Positions 6,080 to 10,731 of a stretch of DNA of 64,000 nt are shown piece after piece. How positions within the stretch are numbered: the first letter of the stretch is position 1; every line of letters begins with the position of its first letter. The stretch spans positions 186,001 through 250,000 of the forward strand of contig NZ_CALPBZ010000006.1 of the NCBI RefSeq assembly GCF_943181415.1. Direction: 5' to 3'. A program made the translations under genes and the position numbers. The stretch is from Microbacterium sp. Marseille-Q6648. Its GTDB lineage: Bacteria > Actinomycetota > Actinomycetes > Actinomycetales > Microbacteriaceae. The notes beneath the pieces were generated by a model, which was not told where the DNA came from, searched no databases, and saw nothing but the letters and a program-made list of their open reading frames with translations.

Positions 6080-6963
6080 TTGATGAGGGGGCGGCCGCGC
6101 GTGAACACGCGGAAGGCGCCGATCAGAAGGCGGTCCGACAGGAACCCGGCCAGGCCGATGACGATCATCCCGACCACGACCATGTCGGTGCGCACCACGT
6201 CGCGGGCGAGGATGATCGCGGACCCGAGCCCGACGCTCACGCCCACGCTCTCGCCGAGGACGAGCACCACCCACGCGATGCCGAGGCCGACGCGCAGTCC
6301 GTTGACGACGGCCGCAGCGGATGCCGGAACGACCACCTGCGCCAGGATCTCCCACGGTCGGGCGCCCAGCATCCGGCCCGCTTCGATCAGACGCGGGGGC
6401 ACCTCTTTGGAACCGCTGATGGCGCCCAGCACGATCGGGAAGAACGCCGACAGGGCGATCAGGAAGATCGTCGCCTGGTCTCCCCAGCCGATCAGGAGGC
6501 CGACGAGCGGCACCCACGCGGTGGCGGGGATGGGCCGGAACAGGTTGATGAACGGGTCGAACAGCGAGTCCATCGTGTAATAGCGGCCCATCAGGATGCC
6601 GAGCGGGATCGCGATCGCCGCGGCGATGCCGAACCCGACCAGCACCCGCAGCGACGACGCCGCGAGGTTGACCCACAGGTCGCCCGAGAACGCGTCGTCG
6701 TGGATGCCGCCGAACGCGTAGTCCCACAGCGACAGCACGACATCGCCCGGCGCGGGCAGGAACCCCATGCGGATGCCGATGACGGGGATCTCCCACGCCT
6801 GATCCCGACCGACCTGCCAGACGACGAGGAACAGCAGGGGGACCGGAAGGGCGAGCAGGCTGCGGCGCAGCAGCGCGCGCCGATTCGGGCGCCGGGCCGG
6901 TGGCCGACGGCGGGGCTCGGTCGAGCCCGCCGCGGCCGTTGCCGTCACCGGGGTCGCGGTCAT
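6076..6963 (-). CDS. ABC importer permease (BPD inner-membrane, SsuC/TauC-like), system 1
   Basis: A 295-residue membrane protein. A short Arg-rich cytoplasmic N-terminus precedes about six hydrophobic helices (first at LLALPVPLLFLVVWQVG). The EAA-type coupling loop is recognisable in IEAGRMLGARPWEILAQVVVP. The ATG at 6963 overlaps the stop of the binding-protein gene (ATGA) and the stop overlaps the ATPase start, so the three proteins are translationally coupled. It should homodimerise, since only one permease gene is present, unlike the two-permease system at 18.7-20.3 kb. Confidence 0.92.
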   Translation of the reverse strand: MTATPVTATAAAGSTEPRRRPPARRPNRRALLRRSLLALPVPLLFLVVWQVGRDQAWEIPVIGIRMGFLPAPGDVVLSLWDYAFGGIHDDAFSGDLWVNLAASSLRVLVGFGIAAAIAIPLGILMGRYYTMDSLFDPFINLFRPIPATAWVPLVGLLIGWGDQATIFLIALSAFFPIVLGAISGSKEVPPRLIEAGRMLGARPWEILAQVVVPASAAAVVNGLRVGLGIAWVVLVLGESVGVSVGLGSAIILARDVVRTDMVVVGMIVIGLAGFLSDRLLIGAFRVFTRGRPLIK

Positions 6964-7916
6964 GGCGCGAACGTGGTGTCGACGATGTCTTCGGCGGCGG
7001 GCGCCTCGTCGATCAGGCCGATGTCGGTCATCGCCGTTGCCAGAGCCTCGAGCTGTGCGACGTACTCGTCCGACAGGTCGGAACGCAGCCAGAAGTTCTC
7101 GAGCGCCGAGGTGAAGACCTCTTCGTCGCCGCCGAACTCCTCGACCATGCCGGGCAGCCACTCGTCGATGTTGTCGGCCATGTACGCGGTCGTGGCGGCA
7201 TGGGTGTCGACGACCCGCTGCACGAGCTCGGGGTCCTCCTCGACGAGCGCGCCGGTGGTGACCAGGCCGATGTTCACCCGCCCGATGTCGGTCGAGTACG
7301 GGTCGAGCACCTCGGTGCCGCCGGCGGCCTTCGCGATCGAGACGCCGATCTCGACGCCCATGAACGCCGCGATGTCGCCGGCCATGAACGCCGACGCCAT
7401 CTCGGGGACCGGGATCACGGCGAGGTCGAAGTCCTCGGGCGTGAGACCGGCGTCGTCGATCAGGAGGCGCAGCGCCACCTCCTGCGCCGAGCCCTGCACG
7501 ATGCCGATGCGCTCGCCGACCAGGTCGTCGAGCGACGTCTCGCCGTTGCCGATGAAGCCGGAGCCGCCGTCGGCGGCGCTGGCGACGATGGTGAGGTCGC
7601 GGTCCTGCGAGACGGAGGAGATGGTGGGCGTGACGCCCGAGATGGCGAAGTCGATCGACCCGGAGGCGAGGGCGTCCGAGAGGGCCGGGGTGGTGTCGAG
7701 GGTCACGACCTCGAACTCCACGCCGTCCACGGCGTAGTCGTTGTAGAGGAACGGCTGGTAGAAGTGCGGCTGGCCGCGCAGGGTGCCGATCGTGACGGTC
7801 ACGGTCTCGTCGTCCGAGCCGCCGGCGGCGGGGCTGCTGCTGCAGCCCGCGAGGAGCAGGGCGGCGGACGCGGCGGTCGCGGCGACCGCGAGGAGGCGGG
7901 TGCGGGGTGAGGACAT
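6960..7916 (-). CDS. ABC substrate-binding lipoprotein (NMT1/tauT-like), system 1
   Basis: A 318-residue lipoprotein. From the ATG at 7916 the N-terminus is an export signal with lipobox LLLAGC, and GGAG lies 9-12 nt upstream; a longer frame from 7991 would bury the signal peptide and is rejected. The mature part is a periplasmic-binding type 2 fold of the NMT1/SsuA class (VTIGTLRGQPHFYQPFLYND near the start, IDFAISGVTPTISS mid-protein). First gene of the three-gene importer operon. Its promoter region faces the XRE-cupin regulator and contains the 30-bp palindromic element at 8027-8056. Ligand unknown. Confidence 0.92.
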   Translation of the reverse strand: MSSPRTRLLAVAATAASAALLLAGCSSSPAAGGSDDETVTVTIGTLRGQPHFYQPFLYNDYAVDGVEFEVVTLDTTPALSDALASGSIDFAISGVTPTISSVSQDRDLTIVASAADGGSGFIGNGETSLDDLVGERIGIVQGSAQEVALRLLIDDAGLTPEDFDLAVIPVPEMASAFMAGDIAAFMGVEIGVSIAKAAGGTEVLDPYSTDIGRVNIGLVTTGALVEEDPELVQRVVDTHAATTAYMADNIDEWLPGMVEEFGGDEEVFTSALENFWLRSDLSDEYVAQLEALATAMTDIGLIDEAPAAEDIVDTTFAP

Positions 7917-8026
7917 GGGTGGACGCTCCAGGGGCGGTTTCCGGCGTGGGGCATACCGGCAGGCGGAAGGGGGTGGTGGGGCTGGCCTCATTCAAGACCC
8001 GCTGTTCGCTCGCGGTGTGAAGCGCG

Positions 8027-8056
8027 TGTAACGAGCGCGTTAAGTCGGGACTTAAG
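8027..8056 (-). promoter_or_regulatory. Putative operator, copy 1 (TGTAACG arm + GTTAAG-N6-CTTAAG)
   Basis: The core GTTAAGTCGGGACTTAAG (8039-8056) is a near-perfect inverted repeat; a TGTAACG arm sits at 8027-8033. Copy 2 at 9043-9072 is its reverse complement with 3 differences in 30 positions. In both, the TGTAACG arm points toward the regulated transport gene (111 nt from the binding-protein start here). The probable regulator is the XRE-cupin protein encoded between the two copies (inference). Confidence 0.75.
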
Positions 8057-8128
8057 CCGCGCGCGGCGCGGGTGCGCGAGGATTTCGCTCCGCCCTACGA
8101 TGGCGGCAGAGCGGTTCACGGAGGCCCC

Positions 8129-8749
8129 ATGAGCGAGACGGCACTGCCGATGCAGATCGGAGCGCGCCTGCGCAGCATCCGGCAATCGTCGGGACGCTCG
8201 CTGGCCTCGGTCGCCCAGCAGATGGGGATCTCCTCCAGCGCGCTGTCGCAGATCGAGACCGGCGCGATGCAGCCGTCCGTCAACCGGCTCATCGAGTTCG
8301 TGACGGTGCTGGGCGTGCCCGTGTCGGCGATCTTCGACGACCTCGCGGTCTTCGCCCCCCGTCTGGGCGACGGGGCCGCAGACGTCACCGAGCCGCTCGA
8401 GGGCGTGCTCGTGTCGCAGCCCGACGCGGTCGAGGCGGCGCACCTCGGGCAGGGCGTCACCTACCGTCGACTCTCCCCAGCCGCGCTGCCCGGTGTCGAC
8501 TGGTTCGAGTCGACGTATCCGCCCGGGTCGTCGTCGTCGATCGACGGCGCGATGCTCGTCCACGCCGGCTACGAGAGCGGGCACGTGGTGCAGGGCGAGC
8601 TCACCTTCGAGTTCGCCGACGGCGCCGTGCGGCTCGGCCGCGGCGGCTCACTGTCGTTCGCGGCGTCGCGTCCGCATCGCGTCGTCAACGACACCGCCGA
8701 GACCGCGGTCGCGATCTGGCTGACCCTCACCACCGCGGAGTCCTCGTAG
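8129..8749 (+). CDS. XRE-family regulator with C-terminal cupin domain (probable purine/ureide regulator)
   Basis: A 206-residue protein with an N-terminal lambda-repressor-like HTH (~residues 8-65: IGARLRSIRQSSGRSLASVA ... ISSSALSQIETG) and a C-terminal cupin barrel (~115-200), the layout of the PuuR/XRE-cupin regulators that sense small metabolites. The ATG at 8129 has GGAGG 5 nt upstream; a longer frame from 8072 lacks one. A TACGAT -10-like box lies near 8096. The gene sits between the divergent ABC operon and the NCS1/allantoinase operon, with the same 30-bp palindromic element on each side, so control of both by this protein is the natural reading. The effector is not determinable; a urate-pathway intermediate is plausible. 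Confidence 0.9.
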   Translation: MSETALPMQIGARLRSIRQSSGRSLASVAQQMGISSSALSQIETGAMQPSVNRLIEFVTVLGVPVSAIFDDLAVFAPRLGDGAADVTEPLEGVLVSQPDAVEAAHLGQGVTYRRLSPAALPGVDWFESTYPPGSSSSIDGAMLVHAGYESGHVVQGELTFEFADGAVRLGRGGSLSFAASRPHRVVNDTAETAVAIWLTLTTAESS

Positions 8750-8771
8750 CGCAGCCCACGCCCGCCGTTCG

Positions 8772-8935
8772 GATCACGTGAACTGGACGCGTGCGGTGGG
8801 TGGGTGCGGCATCCGGGGTTCAGATCACGTGAGCTGGACGCGTGCGGCGGGTGGGGCGCGGCATCCGGGGTTCGGATCACGTGAGCTGGACGCGTGCGGT
8901 GGGTGGGGTGCGGCATCCGGGGTTCGGATCACGTG
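8772..8935. repeat. Tandem repeat, ~52-bp units starting with GATCACGTG
   Basis: GATCACGTG recurs at 8772, 8823, 8875 and 8927 (spacing 51, 52, 52). The intervening sequence (GAGCTGGACGCGTGCGG, then a GGTGGG-rich run, then GCGGCATCCGGGGTT) is nearly identical between units. It is non-coding and lies between the regulator stop and the NCS1 permease promoter. Confidence 0.88.
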
Positions 8936-8995
8936 GTGTCGCCGAGCGCACCCGTTGCGTGCGCTCGTGCCGGGTGGTCTCGGTGAGATCACGTG
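8927..8995. repeat. CACGTG-bounded dispersed element, copy 1
   Basis: Two GATCACGTG words exactly 60 bp apart enclose a sequence ending GGGTGGTCTCGGTGA. The same arrangement, with clear similarity through the whole interior, recurs at 15001-15069. It is fused to the end of the 52-bp tandem array. Confidence 0.75.
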
Positions 8996-9042
8996 TTCTG
9001 GACGCCAGGTGAGGGCGGGCAGCCCCCGAACGGATGCCGGGG

Positions 9043-9072
9043 CTTAAGCCCCGACTTAACGCGAGCGTTACA
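9043..9072 (+). promoter_or_regulatory. Putative operator, copy 2 (inverted relative to copy 1)
   Basis: Core CTTAAGCCCCGACTTAAC (9043-9060) followed by the arm CGTTACA (9066-9072). It is the reverse complement of 8027-8056 with 27 of 30 positions matching, and has the same orientation relative to its downstream gene, the NCS1 permease starting 139 nt further on. Confidence 0.75.
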
Positions 9073-9210
9073 CGAGGGAAACCGGGCCGAGCCCCGGGCG
9101 GCATAGCTTCGTGCCACGGGGCGCCGCCCGCGTGCCGCCGGCACGACCGGCGGTCCCGCGGGCATCTCCGCCCGCCGAGCACCACCCCCACGTCCGTGAC
9201 GGGAGCAGCC

Positions 9211-10731
9211 ATGACCTCGACCATCCCCACCTCCGAGTTCGACACCGCCATCGGTGACGACCGGCATCCTTCTCTGCACAACGACGACCTCGCGCCGCTC
9301 CCCTCCGAGAAGCGCCGGTGGGGAGCGTTCGAGATCTTCAACGTGTGGACCAACGACGTGCAGAGCCTGGCGGGCTACACCCTGGCCGCGGGCCTGTTCG
9401 TCACCGCCGGGATCAACGGCTGGTGGGTCTTCGCGGCGATCATCCTCGCCGGCTTCTTCGTGAACTGGCTCGTGAACCTGACCGGCAAGCCGAGCGTGAA
9501 GTACGGCATCCCGTACGCGGTGATGGCGCGGTCGAGCATGGGCGTGCAGGGGGCGCAGTTCCCCGCACTCATCCGCGGCATCGTCGCGATGTTCTGGTAC
9601 GGCGCGCAGACCTACTTCGCCTCGACCGCGGTGGCCATGGCGCTCAACGCCGTCTTCGGCAACCCCGAGCTGCCCGTGTTCCTGGGGATGGACGCGATCG
9701 ACTGGGTCGCGTACGTCTTCGTCGCGGTGCTCCAGGTCGCGCTGTTCGTGGGCGGCATCGCGTGGATCGAGAGGTTCCTCAACGTCGCCGGACCCGCCGT
9801 CTACGCGGTCATGGTCATCCTCCTCGTGGTGATCTGGATCCAGGCGGGCGACCGCCTGCTGCCCGCCGTCGGCTCGCTCTTCGCAGGCGACGATCGGGTC
9901 GGATGGGACGCGGTCCTCGCCTTCGTCGGCGTCATCGGCACGATGATCGCCTACTTCTCGGCGGTCGTGATCAACTTCGGCGACTTCGCGCGCTTCTCGC
10001 GCAGCGAGGGTGCCATGCGCCGCGGCAACTTCCTCGGGCTGCCGGTGAGCCTGGCCTTCTTCACGTTCCTGTCGCTGTTCATCACCGCCGGCGCCTACAT
10101 CGTGCTGCAGGGCGGCGAGGGCGAGCCCCTCACGAACCCCGCCGAGATCGTCGGCCTCGTCGGCAACGTGTTCCTCACGATCGTCGCCGCAGTGACCTTC
10201 GTGATCGCGACGATCGGGATCAACCTCGTCGCGAACTTCATCCCGCCGGCCTACGACCTGTCGAACCTCGCGCCGCAGCGGATCAGCTTCCGCGCCGGCG
10301 GGTACATCACGGCCGCGTTCGGCTTCGTCGTCGGCGCGCTGTGGGTCGCCACGATCAGTCGGATCGGGCTGCCCGCCTTCGTCGACACCCTTGGCGCGAT
10401 CCTCGCACCGCTCTACGGTGTGCTGGTGGCCGACTTCTACATCATCCAGCGCCGGCGCCTGAAGGTGGCCGACCTTTACTCGATGGACCCGGCGGGCCGC
10501 TATCACTACCAGAAGGGCTGGAACCTGCGGGCGATCGTCGTCGTCGGCGTCGCGGCGGTGTTCTCGATCGCCGCGGTGTGGATGCCGGCGCTGCAGGCGC
10601 TGAGCGGCTTCGCGTGGGTGATCGGCGCCGTCCTCGGCGGTCTGCTGTACCTTGCCGCGATGTGGAACCTGCGCGCCGAAGCCGGCGACACCGCACCCGC
10701 GGTCGAGACCGCAGTCGAGACGGGAGCGTGA
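9211..10731 (+). CDS. NCS1-family nucleobase/allantoin permease
   Basis: A 506-residue integral membrane protein with about 12 hydrophobic helices, of the NCS1 (PucI/allantoin-cytosine permease) family. The N-terminal signature FEIFNVWTNDVQSLAGYTLA is the family's first-helix region. The next gene is allantoinase (its ATG overlaps this stop by 1 nt: TGATG), so allantoin is the favoured substrate, with purines or hydantoins as alternatives. The ATG at 9211 is preceded by GGGAG; the frame extends upstream to 9034 but only through low-quality sequence covering the operator. Expression is probably governed by the palindromic element at 9043-9072. Confidence 0.92.
   Translation: MTSTIPTSEFDTAIGDDRHPSLHNDDLAPLPSEKRRWGAFEIFNVWTNDVQSLAGYTLAAGLFVTAGINGWWVFAAIILAGFFVNWLVNLTGKPSVKYGIPYAVMARSSMGVQGAQFPALIRGIVAMFWYGAQTYFASTAVAMALNAVFGNPELPVFLGMDAIDWVAYVFVAVLQVALFVGGIAWIERFLNVAGPAVYAVMVILLVVIWIQAGDRLLPAVGSLFAGDDRVGWDAVLAFVGVIGTMIAYFSAVVINFGDFARFSRSEGAMRRGNFLGLPVSLAFFTFLSLFITAGAYIVLQGGEGEPLTNPAEIVGLVGNVFLTIVAAVTFVIATIGINLVANFIPPAYDLSNLAPQRISFRAGGYITAAFGFVVGALWVATISRIGLPAFVDTLGAILAPLYGVLVADFYIIQRRRLKVADLYSMDPAGRYHYQKGWNLRAIVVVGVAAVFSIAAVWMPALQALSGFAWVIGAVLGGLLYLAAMWNLRAEAGDTAPAVETAVETGA

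Follow-up and report, generated by a model that had tools for sequence, protein, structure and literature searches.

The window, by which we mean the whole stretch of 64,000 nucleotides analysed here, carries a gene encoding a 206-residue XRE-cupin regulator (8129..8749, plus strand) between two transporter operons. On the minus strand, the gene encoding an NMT1-like ABC transporter substrate-binding protein (SBP; 6960..7916, assigned by family match) is the first of a divergent operon which continues with genes for a permease, an ATPase, an OHCU decarboxylase, an HIU-hydrolase-like protein and a uricase. The regulator gene is followed, in its own orientation, by genes encoding an NCS1-type permease (9211..10731, plus strand; PF02133, read from 9214), an allantoinase, an FmdA-like protein, an amidase-like protein and a class-V aminotransferase; the names HIU-hydrolase-like and amidase-like were assigned by eye. 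The hexamer TACGAT (8096..8101, plus strand) is a possible -10 of the regulator gene, with similar blocks recognised by eye in relatives. The gap between the regulator and NCS1 genes measures 465 nt in the window versus 172 nt in locus L087, and within it, at positions 8751-9019, a 52-nt tandem repeat with GATCACGTG is present in four copies and a fifth, partial one.

The regulator joins an N-terminal HTH to a C-terminal cupin, the Pfam families HTH_31, HTH_3 and Cupin_2 (PF13560, PF01381 and PF07883) all scoring above cut-off, and its AlphaFold model (mean pLDDT 81, pTM 0.72) displays helices over residues 5-68 followed by strands over residues 111-200. The cupin residues His145, Glu149 and His183, which are invariant in 36/36 proteins of the regulator alignment A1 (it took in these 36 and left out the remaining ones), are candidates for a site binding a metal or a ligand.

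Two 30-nt sites, 8027-8056 on the plus strand and 9043-9072 on the minus strand, lie on either side of the regulator gene and are identical at 27/30 positions. They stand 111 nt from the SBP start (7916) and 139 nt from the NCS1 ATG (9211), respectively; an earlier inspection, hereafter the sequence-only reading, had given these positions, identity and distances, and recomputation returned the same values. As an inverted pair, the sites can be followed over 37 nt with 89% identity, and beyond about 37 nt the two copies show low similarity. No match was obtained in 100 dinucleotide shuffles of the window, and the 3.49-Mb genome (8 contigs) contains these two copies only when up to three mismatches are allowed; a looser form of the motif hits seven further places in this genome, all with three mismatches, and its reversed control gives eight matches. 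What had been described as a 30-bp palindromic element is palindromic in GTTAAG-N6-CTTAAG only, and the TGTAACG arm is apparently an element of its own. The palindromic part, here termed IR1, reads GTTAAGTCGGGACTTAAG at the SBP/ABC promoter (8039..8056, plus strand), where the shuffles and its conservation lead us to propose it as an XRE-cupin operator, and GTTAAGTCGGGGCTTAAG on the minus strand at the NCS1 promoter (9043..9060), where the same role is proposed.

Distribution of the inverted repeat and the regulator

Homologues of the regulator were identified in 46 of 198 Microbacterium genomes (49 matches), and regions covering all 48 further matches were fetched for locus comparison. The same 198 genomes include 29 with the motif TGTAAC-N6-GTKAAG-N6-CTTMAS, of which 28 also encode the regulator, and the reversed control motif has no match in any of the 198; the hypergeometric probability of this co-occurrence is 8e-21, a figure that overstates independence since the genomes share descent. 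In the remaining motif-bearing genome, G095, no regulator was found in the fetched region and the ORFs there resemble polysaccharide genes by eye; its motif is probably a chance match.

When scored as GTKAAG-N6-CTTMAC with at most one mismatch and within 400 bp upstream of the regulator, the core repeat is present at 32/32 clade-B and 8/22 clade-A loci, and at 0/5 homologues without purine neighbours. Anywhere within the fetched locus, at the same threshold, it is found in 19/22 clade-A loci, those in which it was not found being L033, L091 and L098. The upstream count covers 59 loci and leaves out L034-L038 and L042; five of these six look like copies of fetched regions, and L037, which differs, was used in the counts of the second repeat and of SBP spacing reported below. 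A Markov background for the core repeat, which is a rough estimate, gave no match in 1.4 Mb. Clade-B regulators accompany the variant GTGAAG-N6-CTTCAC, for which the search motif of the sequence-only reading proved too narrow. Its claim of conservation upstream of both transport operons is borne out, as SBP/ABC promoters linked to the regulator carry the proposed operator at 11/11 loci and, in the nearest relatives, it also lies upstream of NCS1 in a re-spaced form. The motif is therefore not absent upstream of the orthologous ABC and NCS1 genes, which was the outcome named beforehand as contrary to the idea, and the idea was not refuted by this search. Overall, this distribution suggests that the inverted repeat is an operator accompanying the XRE-cupin regulator.

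Among the 198 genomes there is none with the target genes and without the regulator. SBP orthologues with at least 76% identity occur in 9/198 genomes, all nine with the regulator (13/198 genomes pass an SBP search at E 1e-60, the other four being only 42-44% identical), and clade-B NCS1 occurs in 30/198, every one with the regulator. The case for separation consequently rests on genome G161, on box promoters that have no repeat and on distant orthologues, all of which are taken up below. A recognition rule in which Thr at residue 44 would go with GTTAAG, and Arg there with GTGAAG, agrees with clades A and B as well as Nocardiopsis; it was rejected on account of L235, which has Arg together with GTTAAG. 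Both types of regulator are encoded at three loci (L043, L044 and L096), whose SBP operon has a site of the GTTAAG type and whose NCS1 gene has one of the GTGAAG type; these loci provide natural material for a specificity test. The clade-B NCS1 homologue found in G179 (L216, G179:C1:2020041-2021621) has one TGA inside the match.

A class-level profile search of 394 genomes returned 21 with the regulator, 16 of which are outside the genus. Orthologues in other actinobacterial families retain the repeat, which is present in all seven of the stronger out-of-genus orthologues (L227, L231-L236) with two mismatches allowed; near the nine weaker ones (L237-L245) no repeat was found at up to one mismatch and two match at two, and at L229 it was likewise not found at up to one mismatch. 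The divergent genes of the Nocardiopsis locus L049 encode an Asp/Glu/hydantoin-racemase family protein and two NCS1 permeases, which is a ureide-like setting. A phylum-wide scan for GTGAAGCNATANCTTCAC hit 1/396 genomes, G043, beside the regulator of that genome; the phylum sample held few relatives, so the scan speaks to little but specificity.

The GlnR-type box and the core promoters

Read toward the transporter, TGTAACG forms part of GTTAC-N6-GAAAC at the NCS1 promoter (9067..9082, plus strand) and of GTTAC-N6-TTCAC at the SBP/ABC promoter (8017..8032, minus strand). The former is an exact match both to the GlnR box gTnAc-n6-GaAAc, as given in the accessible part of a published account (PMC10704036), and to the box at amtB promoters of the genus; the latter is a weaker match to the published box, its first half fitting and its second half reading TTCAC, not GAAAC. 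At amtB promoters from 30 loci in 29 genomes of the genus, GTNAC-N6-GAAAC is exact in 23/30 and within one mismatch at the conserved place in 28/30, while L159 has two mismatches and no box was found at that place in L165. The window's own genome has an exact amtB box and encodes a GlnR orthologue (the L180 ORF), whose best match among PDB sequences is 8hih_O (E 3e-75), from an M. tuberculosis GlnR complex, and whose GlnR-named match is 4o1h (E 2.5e-25). By eye, many of the amtB promoters L150-L179 have, in addition to GTAAC-N6-GAAAC, GATGTTTAC or GATGTTCAC in common on the upstream side, together with a downstream GAAAC and an ACACTG block.

The presumed -10 elements, TTGAAT at the SBP/ABC promoter (7990..7995, minus strand) and TAGCTT at NCS1 (9104..9109, plus strand), lie 31 nt from GTTACA, which at NCS1 occupies 9067-9072. 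This spacing is kept at 11/11 regulator-linked SBP promoters, several of them from close relatives, nine reading GTTACA-N31-TTGAAT and two GTTACA-N31-TTTACT. We read the TGTAACG arm as probably one half of a GlnR-type activator box lying near the -35 of each transporter promoter. The orientation of this arm toward its target, pointed out in the sequence-only reading, holds, but it fits the polarity of a GlnR box at a fixed distance from the presumed -10.

A second repeat, e.g., GTTAAGCAATAGCTTTAC or GTGAAGCAATAGCTTCAC, is found in 40/55 loci, where it spans the presumed -10 of whichever gene stands there, NCS1 or its replacement; the distance from GTTAC to the end of the second repeat is 46 nt in 39 of these 40. 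This count leaves out the five non-purine homologues, and some regulator starts in it are mis-set. The window is among the 15/55 loci in which no second repeat was found, and only the right arm of a degenerate one (IR2) is recognisable, at 9095..9112 on the plus strand. The two window copies agree at 9/12 positions which vary freely in relatives (binomial P of about 0.0015), and the NCS1-side arrangement of L087 and L088 differs from that of the window; one window site might perhaps have been copied locally onto the other in the window's lineage.

Repeat and box also occur apart. In G161 the SBP operon and the regulator are on different contigs, and the SBP promoter keeps GTTACA-N31-TTAACT and has no repeat even at two mismatches; this natural experiment is weakened by the G161 regulator locus, which has 2-mismatch repeats only and whose regulator may have changed specificity. 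NCS1 or allantoinase promoters such as those of L089, L093 and L040 have the box and lack the upstream repeat, and in L087 and L088 the distance separating that repeat from the box is 6 bp greater. The reverse is seen in Nocardiopsis L048 and L049, where the repeat is present and a search allowing one mismatch found no box within 300 nt; L231-L236 likewise have the repeat, without a box match near the regulator. The clade-B loci L100, L103, L110 and L121, which have the repeat and not the GTTAC form, were excluded from this evidence since a GlnR-like box is present in another form, TTTAC or TTCAC-N6-G(A/C)AAC. In L103 the GlnR-like box is, by count, displaced from the repeat by a further 11 bp, or one helical turn. 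At both window sites TTAAC, GTTAC and GAAAC are in 11-bp phase, and TTAAC, the right arm of IR1, could itself be a GlnR half-site.

Proposed control of the transporter promoters

According to our analysis, the element probably consists of an XRE-cupin dimer operator, GTTAAG-N6-CTTAAG, and a GlnR-type box which together would control both transporter operons. The XRE-cupin operator put forward in the sequence-only reading thus survives insofar as the repeat goes with the regulator, but not as one 30-bp operator including TGTAACG, given that box and repeat are separable. In the scheme that we envisage, where we infer the binding of XRE-cupin and GlnR, the direction of control and the ligand, GlnR would bind the box under nitrogen limitation and activate the transporter promoters. 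Such activation is proposed in view of the GlnR peaks located in M. smegmatis at genes annotated as allantoin/purine permease and allantoicase, according to the accessible part of the report (PMC3662644). In cells lacking the substrate, which would be a ureide or purine (allantoin, for instance), an XRE-cupin dimer on IR1 would block transcription by competing with GlnR or with polymerase, and in most relatives the second repeat over the -10 would be occupied by a dimer as well; repression would be lifted by an inducer held in the cupin domain. Repression seems likelier than activation in light of the repeat over the -10 and of the behaviour of characterised XRE-cupins. As a more tentative elaboration, which we hold to be possible and short of an even chance, the promoter may work as a conserved AND gate, in which operator and GlnR box, set one helical turn from each other, would have a half-site (TTAAC/TTCAC) in common or adjoin at one, and the local ureide sensor and the global nitrogen activator would compete for the DNA; the spacing of IR1 would then have changed by 6 bp in the lineage of the window, with the GlnR box fixed-spaced in Microbacterium.

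Other explanations were weighed against the composite of operator and box. The XRE-cupin might bind the repeat and act as an activator, or regulate its own gene only, as IR1 is located upstream of both core promoters, SBP and NCS1, and in clade B close to the regulator's own promoter; we deem this unlikely, since the second repeat over the presumed -10 in 40/55 loci is in a repressing position and the XRE-cupins characterised in the available parts of two reports repress (PMC12724383, PMC7901475). Lower still is the probability that we assign to a single 30-bp XRE-cupin operator with TGTAACG as a third half-site setting direction. At 31 sites in 29 genomes TGTAAC does stand beside the repeat at N6, but GTTAC-N6-GAAAC agrees with both the GlnR box as published and the amtB box of the genus, the box occurs at several NCS1/allantoinase promoters and in G161 where the upstream repeat is missing, the Nocardiopsis repeat stands alone without a box, and in L087/L088 the repeat is shifted by 6 bp relative to the box.

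The converse, a site for GlnR only, made of half-sites phased at 11 bp, with the XRE-cupin acting elsewhere, draws on the phasing of TTAAC, GTTAC and GAAAC at both window sites and on the four clade-B loci where another form of the box stands upstream by one helical turn. It strikes us as quite improbable: by eye, the left arm of the repeat is out of the 11-bp phase, the repeat stays with the regulator where the box is not seen, and the motif is confined to regulator genomes (28/29) whereas amtB boxes are genus-wide. Finally, that the pair is a recent inverted duplication without regulatory meaning, for which the agreement at 9/12 freely varying positions could be cited, is barely credible, as the genome has two copies only, with low similarity past about 37 nt, and as the site is kept at the same promoters across species, which largely refutes it. 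If the composite of operator and box is correct, an operator, its regulator and a second input would be proposed for ureide/purine use in a genus that is common in the environment, and a natural series of promoters having or lacking each part would be directly testable. It would also show that what looks by eye like one palindromic element can be two sites for two regulators.

Relation to known XRE-cupin and GlnR systems

Each part of the arrangement is a known kind of element, and in openly accessible papers we found no report of the operator or of its coupling to a GlnR-type box. A supplement reports 223 XRE motif clusters (PMC12565409), among which, as far as the accessible material goes, the window's motif may be included. 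The best NCBIfam match of the regulator is PuuR (NF007408; E 3.1e-14, residues 8-193), with which it shares the XRE-cupin architecture; its identification as PuuR was rejected on the score, 53 bits versus a cut-off of 211, and its gene lies in a purine-breakdown neighbourhood.

The closest parallels are DbuR of Pseudomonas putida and PsdR, ErfA and PauR of P. aeruginosa, which in the available parts of the reports (PMC12724383, PMC7901475) likewise combine an HTH and a cupin, are encoded beside a transport or catabolic operon and use a palindromic dimer site, as predicted here; the footprint of DbuR covers a palindrome and the predicted -10 (PMC12724383). Unlike in those systems, as described there, the palindrome here has a different sequence, lies in a purine/ureide neighbourhood and adjoins a GlnR-type box. 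With the actinomycete GlnR regulon, as partly accessible (PMC10704036), the locus shares the box gTnAc-n6-GaAAc at the NCS1 promoter, whereas here the box adjoins an XRE-cupin repeat, a pairing absent from the portions of the GlnR accounts that were compared.
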